In this document: piece by piece, positions 1-42,823 of the stretch | How the letters are laid out: each line of letters starts with the position of its first letter | How positions within the stretch are numbered: the first letter of the stretch is position 1 | Assembly (NCBI GenBank): GCA_029238255.1 | Contig: JAQWGK010000050.1 | Span: 1 to 64,000 of the forward strand | Reading direction: 5' to 3' | Source of the DNA: Porticoccaceae bacterium | Lineage (GTDB): Bacteria; Pseudomonadota; Gammaproteobacteria; Pseudomonadales; Porticoccaceae | DNA length: 64,000 nt | Translations under genes and position numbers: made by a program | The notes under the pieces: model-generated | Seen by the model: only the letters and a program-made list of their open reading frames with translations | What the model was told of the DNA's origin: nothing | Database searches by the model: none

Positions 1-478
<478 letters not shown>

Positions 479-18902: not shown

Positions 18903-18985
18903 TTCCAGTCACGCTTTTCCCGGACAAATTTCCCGACAACTCCCTTTAGTCGACTCTTTTTTAAGCCTGCTCTGCTATACTTTTG

Positions 18986-19158
18986 CTTCCTGGGGTGTGC
19001 GCCAGTCAAGAAGTCCCTGAGCCGATAATTATTATCCGGTTTTTCTCCGTCAATATTGTTGTGCACTTCCGTGCGTCGGAAAGCCTGATATATTGCGAGC
19101 GAAGCCACCTTGAACTCTTCGGTTCAAGGCCACGTTGACAGCGGCACCTTGGGGTTTT
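18986..19158 (+). ncRNA. ssrS: 6S RNA
   Basis: The segment has 6S hallmarks seen in E. coli: AGTCCCTGAGCCGATA on the 5' side, then GCCTGATATATTGCGA. The conserved CCTTGAACtcttcgGTTCAAGG hairpin and a 3' segment ACAGCGGCACC that pairs with the 5' end complete it. It lies between zapA and fau, its standard position. A TATACT -10 box (18976-18981) supports a start at about 18987. The 6S molecule mimics an open promoter and traps sigma-70 RNA polymerase in stationary phase. Both ends are estimates. Confidence 0.92.
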
Positions 19159-19194
19159 AATGAAAGCAATCTGATAAATAGCGGTTGGCTGCCA

Positions 19195-42234: not shown

Positions 42235-42259
42235 AGAGTTAGCCTAAGTCATTACCTGA

Positions 42260-42316
42260 GTGCATATAAATGATGCGAAGAATGCATTTGGATTATGACA
42301 TACCTCTGAGTATATT
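42260..42316 (+). promoter_or_regulatory. Operator and promoter of small unit 1 (peptide)
   Basis: A 31-bp block (42260-42290) has TGCAT, ATGC and AATGCATTTG elements and runs directly into a -35 (TTGGAT, 42288-42293). A 17-bp spacer and a -10 (TATATT, 42311-42316) follow. The start should be near 42324 (CGCA). The block matches the one at 42653-42683 at 22 of 31 positions with identical spacing. A LysR-binding role is inferred from the adjacent gene. Confidence 0.7.
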
Positions 42317-42363
42317 GACACGCATAGGGCAGATGACCCAGTTAACACTCAAGGAGATAGACC

Positions 42364-42486
42364 ATGACACTCGTATACGTACTAATCGGATTTGCTGGAT
42401 TAGCGGGTGCTGCAATTGCGAAAGATGACTTCGCCAATGTTAAAGCACCAAAACTCAAAAATTCAGATAAAACGCTGACACAGTAA
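42364..42486 (+). CDS. 40-residue peptide, signal-like N-terminus
   Basis: Starts at an ATG 7 bp after a strong ribosome-binding site (AAGGAG, 42351-42356) and ends TAA at 42486. The first 20 residues are hydrophobic and end AGAAIA (MTLVYVLIGFAGLAGAAIAK), like a cleavable signal or small membrane anchor. The remaining half is polar and basic (DDFANVKAPKLKNSDKTLTQ). I do not recognise the family. It has its own promoter and tandem terminators, so it is a stand-alone small gene and not a leftover of a larger one. Confidence 0.7.
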   Translation: MTLVYVLIGFAGLAGAAIAKDDFANVKAPKLKNSDKTLTQ

Positions 42487-42514
42487 GTCGGCGCTTTGAA
42501 ACCAAACCCCTCTT

Positions 42515-42567
42515 AATCCTTGCTATAGGATTTTTTATAGGGGCCCACCACTGGGCCCCTTTTTTTT
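42515..42567 (+). terminator. Tandem intrinsic terminators of small unit 1
   Basis: A first hairpin (AATCCT-tgctat-AGGATT plus a T-run, 42515-42536) is followed at once by a very stable one (GGGGCCCA-ccac-TGGGCCCC, 42540-42559) and eight T. Confidence 0.92.
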
Positions 42568-42652
42568 GTCTGCTAAAAAATCCAACATAGATAAAATTCT
42601 CAGTCAAACGCTATAGCCCATAATACCGGCTTATTTCAGCGACATTACCAAA

Positions 42653-42709
42653 ATGCATGACCCTAATGCAAACAATGCATTTGATGTATACCTTGGAGAT
42701 TCTTATTAT
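42653..42709 (+). promoter_or_regulatory. Operator and promoter of small unit 2 (RNA)
   Basis: A 31-bp block (42653-42683) with ATGCAT, AATGC and AATGCATTTG leads into a -35 (TTGATG, 42681-42686). A 17-bp spacer and a -10 (TATTAT, 42704-42709) follow. The predicted start is 42716, again at CGCA. The layout superimposes on the promoter at 42260-42316, pointing to shared control. Confidence 0.68.
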
Positions 42710-42715
42710 GCTCGC

Positions 42716-42823
42716 ATTGAAGAGTTACTGAGAAGTAACTTTTAACAGATTTACCCCCTACCCCTTTCTTGTGATTCATCCAAGGATTTTTTTAAGGAAC
42801 CTCCCTCAGGTTCCTTTTTTTTT
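42716..42823 (+). ncRNA. Candidate small regulatory RNA of about 108 nt
   Basis: No convincing reading frame fits between the promoter and terminator; the only short frame starts inside the -10. Near the 5' end a 7-bp hairpin with a GNRA loop (AGTTACT-GAGA-AGTAACT, 42723-42740) is seen. Then comes a single-stranded pyrimidine-rich stretch (TTTACCCCCTACCCCTTTC, about 42750-42770) and a strong terminator. A C-rich unpaired segment could pair with purine-rich ribosome-binding sites. I know of no named RNA that it matches. Confidence 0.6.
42794..42823 (+). terminator. Intrinsic terminator of small unit 2
   Basis: AAGGAACCT-ccctc-AGGTTCCTT is a perfect 9-bp stem followed by T's to 42823. Confidence 0.9.

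Follow-up and report, generated by a model that had tools for sequence, protein, structure and literature searches.

The window, a 64,000-nucleotide stretch of DNA, comes from a SAR92-type (Porticoccaceae) genome of 2.2 Mb that carries two promoter/operator blocks, in register with one another, on the 5' side of a LysR gene. The gene order is coq7, LysR (minus strand), two small units that we call unit 1 and unit 2, an OsmC-like gene (minus strand) and a crp-type gene, past which lie genes that are presumably trp-like (Table 1). This layout, a LysR gene divergent from a small transcript, is repeated in relatives. Beyond the units, the first protein gene recognised is the OsmC-like one, which is convergent with them, and they are therefore unlikely to act by attenuation of a downstream gene. 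Coastal sea water commonly contains SAR92 bacteria, and in the literature searched, nothing on small RNAs in these bacteria surfaced beyond single-cell-genome work. Elsewhere in the window, a 6S RNA was recognised at 18984-19159 on the plus strand (93.8 bits; Rfam RF00013), and the contig starts with a partial 16S rRNA (1-478, minus strand).

Table 1. Features of the LysR locus, in window coordinates
Feature	Position	Strand	Basis or remarks
LysR-type regulator, 324 aa	41260-42234	-	Divergent from unit 1; Pfam HTH_1 and LysR_substrate
Operator 1	42251-42296	+	ATTA-N7-GCAT 42251-42265; ATGC-N7-GCAT 42273-42287; ATGC-N7-TTAT 42282-42296
Unit 1 -10 box TATATT	42311-42316	+	TATANT, fixed offset in 79-site profile; inferred start ~42324
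Unit 1 transcript (predicted), microprotein mRNA with sRNA-like 3' module	42324-42567	+	Promoter and terminator positions
40-aa hydrophobic microprotein, AAGGAG upstream	42364-42486	+	Motif GLxGxAIAxDD; homologs in other genera
Unit 1 3' module	42506-42567	+	C-rich motif search; model R1
Unit 1 C-rich strand ACCCCUCUUAAUCC	42506-42519	+	
Unit 1 hairpin AUCCU..AGGAU	42516-42531	+	
Unit 1 terminator, U8	42540-42567	+	
Operator 2	42644-42689	+	ATTA-N7-GCAT 42644-42658; ATGC-N7-GCAT 42666-42680; ATGC-N7-GTAT 42675-42689
Unit 2 -10 box TATTAT	42704-42709	+	Fixed offset from operator core; predicted start ~42716
Unit 2 RNA, ~108 nt, probably noncoding	42716-42823	+	Fold z-score -3.2; H0 covariation; no common ORF
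Unit 2 hairpin H0	42720-42743	+	
Unit 2 C-rich strand	42753-42764	+	Hairpin H1 then follows
Unit 2 terminator	42794-42823	+	

Both units lie behind a conserved triple operator

The initial annotation had drawn attention to two 31-bp blocks said to agree at 22 of 31 positions. We confirmed this agreement and found it only moderately unusual, as 7 of 300 first-order Markov controls of the 627-bp intergenic region also reached 22. Since Markov sequences can match this well, the pair of blocks taken alone is weak evidence, and it is conservation that decides. We read the regions 5' of LysR in 90 loci from 89 of the 98 family genomes (L074 and L096 belong to one genome, and contig ends truncate L029 and L039). 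In the window's genus, the block pattern occurred 79 times in 36 upstream regions (the first 620 nt of each), compared with a mean of 0.98 and a maximum of 3 over 50 rounds of mononucleotide shuffling. Every one of these 36 regions held at least one block, and 35 held at least two. The same fixed pattern was present in 3/3 regions of genus g13, 2/2 of g6, 6/12 of g10 and 33/37 of other genera, counts that have to be read with the strictness of the pattern in mind: it missed variants visible by eye in four of the 37 regions (L065, L070, L084 and L089) and two diverged g10 regions (L053 and L054), and two of its six g10 matches (L043 and L047) are best disregarded, as they seem to fall within the next gene.

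Each block proved to be longer than described, with the limits given in Table 1, and to hold three 15-bp inverted repeats. The 79 genus copies yield an extended consensus of approximately GGTCATTAC-AAAA-GCATA-N6-AATGCAAACAATGCATTTGATTTATG, followed at constant distance by a TATANT -10 box; in this alignment the core columns were fixed by the search pattern, and the flanking columns and the -10 were left free. The -10 boxes proposed for both units were borne out by a constant offset in the profile of the 79 copies. The proposed -35 elements, which had been placed at equal offset in the two units, were not: the copies have no conserved -35 hexamer, and the sequence taken for one falls inside the operator. 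Given that the -10 is conserved and a -35 is not, an activator is probably needed.

Measured from the predicted starts (42324 and 42716, placed by the position of the -10 box), the centres of the repeats lie at -66/-44/-35 in unit 1 and at -65/-43/-34 in unit 2. Phylogenetic footprinting has located the repeats recognised by OxyR at oxyS at -66, -44 and -35, and those recognised by GcvA at gcvB at -65 and -43 (PMC5002191). Judged by its sequence and spacing, the block is a LysR triple operator of textbook form. We also considered the NodD/nod box class, which is defined by an ATC-N9-GAT palindrome (PMC5596368), and rejected it, as the operator reads ATGC-N7-GCAT. Since operator 1 starts 16 bp past the start codon of LysR, it probably serves LysR autoregulation as well. 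In the window's own genome, the operator pattern was found with at most one mismatch only at the two unit sites, so the regulon of this species may consist of just these two units. Four more places need three mismatches, one of them being the opposite strand of operator 2, and a reversed control gives one.

The regulator and its distant homologs

The best match to LysR had an E value of 1.1e-67 or better in 91 of the 98 family genomes, and its ortholog is present in the cultured SAR92 strains HTCC2207 and MOLA455. Its nearest solved structure was 2uye, a LysR-type regulatory protein (E 1.8e-22), which we take to be of the DntR/NahR type. The NCBIfam equivalogs matched LysR far below their cut-offs, which leaves it with no named ortholog and no assignable ligand. 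Among 35 distant homologs (L162-L196; 34-42 percent identity), 23 have a matching box no more than 150 nt away from the LysR start, compared with a mean of 0.3 and a maximum of 2 in a shuffled control for the same regions (pattern slightly relaxed). Read by eye, many of the short units beside these distant homologs have a terminator and no peptide.

Unit 1 encodes a microprotein under purifying selection

The 40-residue peptide that had been claimed for unit 1 is encoded by a real ORF under protein-level constraint, with a pN/pS of 0.15 in 25 species (codons 1-24) and of 0.20 in 12 close species (codons 1-40). The peptide was readable in 30 of the 36 genus regions; it was masked in one (L033) and not seen in five, namely L034-L037 and L029, which is cut short. 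Homologs in other genera have a hydrophobic start and the motif listed in Table 1. When 293 genomes of the order were searched with a peptide profile, nine genomes matched at E 0.001 or better, all of them Porticoccaceae; weak matches in G047, G063, G036 and G028 were dropped, there being no peptide motif in the stretches examined.

The window peptide matched nothing in Pfam or PADLOC and nothing at 0.001 in NCBIfam, where MamG reached 15.3 bits against a cut-off of 100. When 18 peptide homologs were compared, DUF1328 matched one of them (E 0.008) and PRK13682 hypothetical proteins matched three (best E 0.00065), weak matches that we take to reflect a common small-hydrophobic composition. The DUF1127 small protein was a candidate that we set aside, as it was absent from the Pfam matches of the 18 homologs (E up to 1). 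From its composition, the microprotein is probably a single-pass membrane protein. At six distant loci in Halieaceae and other Gammaproteobacteria (L162, L171, L179, L183, L191 and L192), the LysR homolog faces a hydrophobic peptide of 24-28 residues that ends near IAW(D/E)(D/E) or IAV(N/E)D. These distant microproteins were found by reading upstream regions, and their homology is a matter of resemblance in alignment.

The 3' halves of the two transcripts are related

The two transcripts had been described as unrelated. We found that their 3' halves are related, and that models built from either one find the other. Model R1 was made from 40 distinct 3' modules of the unit 1 type, and model R2 from 27 unit 2 modules. 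In the window, the unit 2 module is matched by R1 over its full length (38.4 bits, E 4.9e-7), and in 25 of the 25 genus genomes in which unit 2 scores at least 54 bits with R2, R1 recovers that place too (E 4.2e-8 to 0.0038); R2 in turn finds the window's unit 1 module with 27.6 bits (E 4.9e-6). Terminator-only matches reach 22 bits, and since a cross-match of 38 bits is not far above an ordinary terminator, we judge the 3' halves to be related because the match recurs where it is expected. R1 also gives full-length matches, of 30 and 33 bits, at two sites that are unlinked (L233, near 653, and L234, near 784, in genomes G055 and G095). These two sites are alike, each having a C-containing stretch and a terminator behind what appears to be an ordinary long ORF.

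Of 39 genus genomes, R1 matched 37; among those with a completeness of 90 percent or more and a contamination of no more than 5 percent, it matched 24 of 24. The LysR survey includes 29 of the 37 matched genomes, and each of these has a match beside the LysR coordinates; among the matches listed, six lie away from LysR (in the window's own genome, G000, and in G055, G064, G074, G089 and G095).

Each 3' half has an unpaired C-rich stretch, along with a small hairpin, a linker rich in U and a strong terminator that carries about eight U. In genera g1 and g13, 39/39 regions contained the unit 1 motif C[CT]CCTCTTA[AGT], compared with a shuffled mean of 0.27. This comparison is the fair measure of its conservation, because the pattern used to select the aligned unit 1 modules itself includes the C-rich motif, whose invariance in the module alignment is therefore partly built in. 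The terminators noted earlier are present in both window units. A run of eight or more T ends both of these units and most of the aligned relatives, whose extraction depended on a T run no shorter than 5 or 6.

Unit 2 has a 5' hairpin in addition, which makes it an RNA of three hairpins; it folds more favourably than its shuffles (z -3.2; 2/200 as good), with the C-rich stretch unpaired. Its best 5' stem retained a mean of 7.73 of 9 pairs over 26 relatives, whereas shuffled sequences gave 6.38 (sd 0.27, maximum 7.04). In hairpin H0, four of nine pairs changed on both sides, and the covariation score was reached by 2/500 shuffles; because the 10 sequences used were a subset chosen from 26 for equal geometry, the covariation leans in favour of the hairpin. 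RNAalifold on MAFFT alignments gave five pairs for unit 1 and none for unit 2, a poor yield that follows from the variable lengths of stems and linker, so R1 and R2 are mostly sequence models. As the initial annotation had supposed, unit 2 seems to be noncoding: no ORF is common to its 26 surveyed relatives (L027 was left out of 27), and 11 of the 26 have no ORF of at least 8 codons.

Searches of Rfam at the gathering threshold and up to an E value of 5 brought no family to its cut-off for either unit. The GcvB and OxyS RNA families proper were rejected as candidates, being absent from the matches at both settings, and judged by family name there was no AbcR entry among the seven weak matches (E up to 5).

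The number, order and linkage of units vary

The C-rich motif follows within 220 nt of the peptide gene in 27 of the 30 genus peptide genes and is absent in L044, L048 and L051. Given these three, and the five genus regions in which no peptide was seen (one of them the shortened L029), the peptide and the RNA appear to be separable. Nine genus regions have at least two boxes before the peptide gene, and by eye it is a noncoding unit that adjoins LysR in these regions, with the peptide unit next. One region, L042, has three units. In genus g13 we found one noncoding unit only (L055, L056 and L059), and some other genera have several peptide units, two in L073 and three in L094.

Units with the same operator also occur on contigs other than that of LysR. 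In g10, L294 (G020 contig 28, 23600-28200) holds an array of at least four units, with three intact peptide frames, one decayed frame and some masked tails. Also in g10, G042 has one unit with the same operator on a separate contig. Relatives that keep LysR and lack the blocks, which the initial annotation had named as grounds for giving up its proposal, do occur as far as the surroundings of LysR are concerned: LysR has no linked unit in six of 12 g10 genomes (L043, L045, L046, L047, L049 and L050). In three of these six genomes (G036, G071 and G047), however, a unit with the operator and a C-rich tail, and with no evident peptide, lies on another contig. A fourth of the six, G057, has the RNA module, but no operator was recognised with it, and the remaining two, G028 and G063, showed nothing convincing. 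The unlinked g10 units with the same operator hint more strongly than anything else seen here that the operator moves together with the RNA tail, and that the regulator works in trans. By eye, the LysR upstream region at the six g10 loci runs into a trpC-like gene, and neither small units nor the OsmC-like gene were seen there.

A probable local LysR regulon of two small transcripts

We consider it likely that LysR governs a local regulon here, in which two small transcripts are under joint control, one of them an sRNA and the other a microprotein mRNA ending in a sibling RNA tail. The divergently encoded LysR protein would bind the triple inverted-repeat operator before each unit and activate promoters that have a -10 and no conserved -35. 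Unit 2 would then give rise to a small regulatory RNA of about 108 nt, and unit 1 to an mRNA for the 40-residue, probably single-pass membrane microprotein, with the related RNA module as its 3' end. In the simplest reading, the unpaired C-rich stretch by the U8 terminator would be the pairing seed typical of Hfq-dependent sRNAs, and it would be directed at G-rich stretches such as the ribosome-binding regions of target mRNAs. The genome from which the window comes does have an Hfq gene. Sites complementary to the unit 1 C-rich stretch were not clearly enriched, with 13 matches, including the unit itself, compared with 8 for a reversed control. The support at the level of sequence is made up of the conservation and geometry of the operator, the -10, purifying selection on the peptide, the related RNA modules and the Hfq gene; the role of LysR as an activator, transcription, Hfq binding, base pairing, targets and the membrane location are what we infer.

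The initial annotation had proposed that one regulator, likely the adjacent LysR, co-controls the peptide and the RNA. Operator geometry, family-wide linkage and two-site specificity speak for this proposal, and the six of 12 g10 genomes with a unit-less LysR speak against it. On balance, the adjacent LysR is very probably the common regulator of the peptide transcript and the RNA. Alternatively, a different regulator may recognise the same operator, with the neighbouring LysR a bystander, which would suit both the persistence of LysR in half of the g10 genomes while the units are unlinked or not found, and the further peptide-plus-tail units that genus g11 has behind a different promoter sequence. 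We regard this as quite improbable, however, given that the units are linked with this LysR across most of the genera read, that the operator geometry is of the LysR type, and that matching boxes also lie close to the start of 23 of the 35 distant homologs.

It is also conceivable that the locus consists of two LysR-regulated microprotein genes, that their C-rich 3' ends are mere tails or terminators without a function in trans, and that unit 2 is a decayed copy that has lost its ORF. The several peptide units of L073 and L094 fit this history, as do the nine genus regions in which a noncoding unit precedes the peptide gene, as if units duplicate and lose ORFs, and the ordinary terminators that can reach 30-33 bits with R1. 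Yet unit 2 keeps the C-rich motif, the covarying H0, a favourable fold and the operator in 27 regions, which would not be expected of a leftover, and the noncoding unit is the only unit seen in g13; we therefore think this explanation unlikely, although it retains some weight. A small hydrophobic peptide gene beside a small RNA is the usual outline of type I toxin-antitoxin pairs, and the locus has this outline, so that unit 1 might encode a toxin and unit 2 an antisense antitoxin RNA. We find this hardly credible, since the two RNAs resemble each other and the operator is common to both. Antisense pairing of unit 2 with the translation start region of unit 1 was no stronger than that of shuffled unit 2 in 9/9 species.

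Precedents for the circuit

The statement that no described system has such a layout was wrong in kind, as GcvA-GcvB, OxyR-OxyS, VtlR-AbcR and WatR-WatS are precedents. In OxyR-OxyS and GcvA-GcvB, the LysR regulator is divergent from an sRNA, which is activated, and the regulator is autorepressed (PMC5002191). Our locus resembles these two systems in its divergent LysR and in its 15-bp inverted repeats at about -66/-44/-35 or -65/-43, here counted from predicted starts. It differs from them in having ATGC-N7-GCAT repeats where theirs are ATAG-N7-CTAT or ATTA-N7-TAAT, in having one to three tandem units of which one encodes a microprotein, and in the lack of an Rfam match.

VtlR (LsrB) of Rhizobiales directly drives AbcR1/2, VrsA and the small protein Atu1667 via a common 15-bp box, and it shares with our regulator the small number of genomic sites and the tandem sibling sRNAs near its gene (PMC7486931). 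In contrast to VtlR-AbcR, we found no DUF1127 or AbcR-named match, and the tandem units here are both coding and noncoding, with operator and RNA tail in common. A small-protein gene is linked to several homologous sRNAs in the CcaF1-CcsR1-4 (CIN1) locus of Rhodobacter and relatives (PMC10253847). These arise from a single RpoH-driven precursor cut by RNase E, whereas each unit here has its own promoter, operator and terminator; a DUF1127 match is also lacking here.

WatR of Methylomonas is a LysR regulator that controls the microproteins WatS1-5, four of which are homologous, with one predicted transmembrane segment; its sites overlap the -35 region and have the motif ATTGTT-N11-AACAA, and an efflux pump is also under its control (PMC10355033). 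A LysR regulator and microproteins of a transmembrane type, here predicted, are common to both cases, and we set WatS apart by description rather than by sequence. The available part of the WatR report mentions no sRNA tail for WatS, whereas such a tail is a feature of unit 1 here.

Compared by description, unit 1 also resembles the dual-function sRNA of the SgrS/SgrT type, in which one RNA has both an ORF and a pairing region; it has an ORF and a putative pairing region, under a different regulator and with a sibling noncoding copy. One operator and one RNA tail common to coding and noncoding units were not met in the literature that we searched, a body that leaves most subscription journals outside it. 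The locus looks like a so far unnamed circuit of an already known kind, and what is unusual about it is the cassette-like behaviour of operator, optional microprotein and C-rich tail. At cut-off, the RNA matches no Rfam family, and the window microprotein no Pfam or NCBIfam family.

A possible regulatory cassette

A conserved regulator with compact operators and one to three tiny products offers an easy place to learn what signal is sensed and what the products do. In addition, the versions found in nature (RNA alone, RNA with a peptide, units in swapped order, arrays that are unlinked and a peptide without a tail) amount to a ready comparative experiment on how transcripts gain or lose coding function while keeping RNA function. 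We put forward tentatively that the LysR operator, an optional membrane microprotein and the C-rich sRNA tail may be inherited as one module, a regulatory cassette. Such a cassette would duplicate, swap coding and noncoding content and spread to unlinked places with its operator kept, so that one LysR might govern an expanding set of dual-function RNAs in Porticoccaceae; Halieaceae would have reduced versions. Our confidence in the cassette is lowered by the three of 30 peptide genes that have no tail.

Five further peptide-plus-C-rich units were found at unlinked sites in G022, a genome of genus g11 (L255-L259). Each has a peptide gene followed by a ACCTACCC-type stretch and a terminator, and the five share a promoter region of their own, around CTTAACATTG, that is unlike the operator. 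This different promoter region suggests that units of this kind have a second regulator, and it indicates that peptide and tail can sit under other control.
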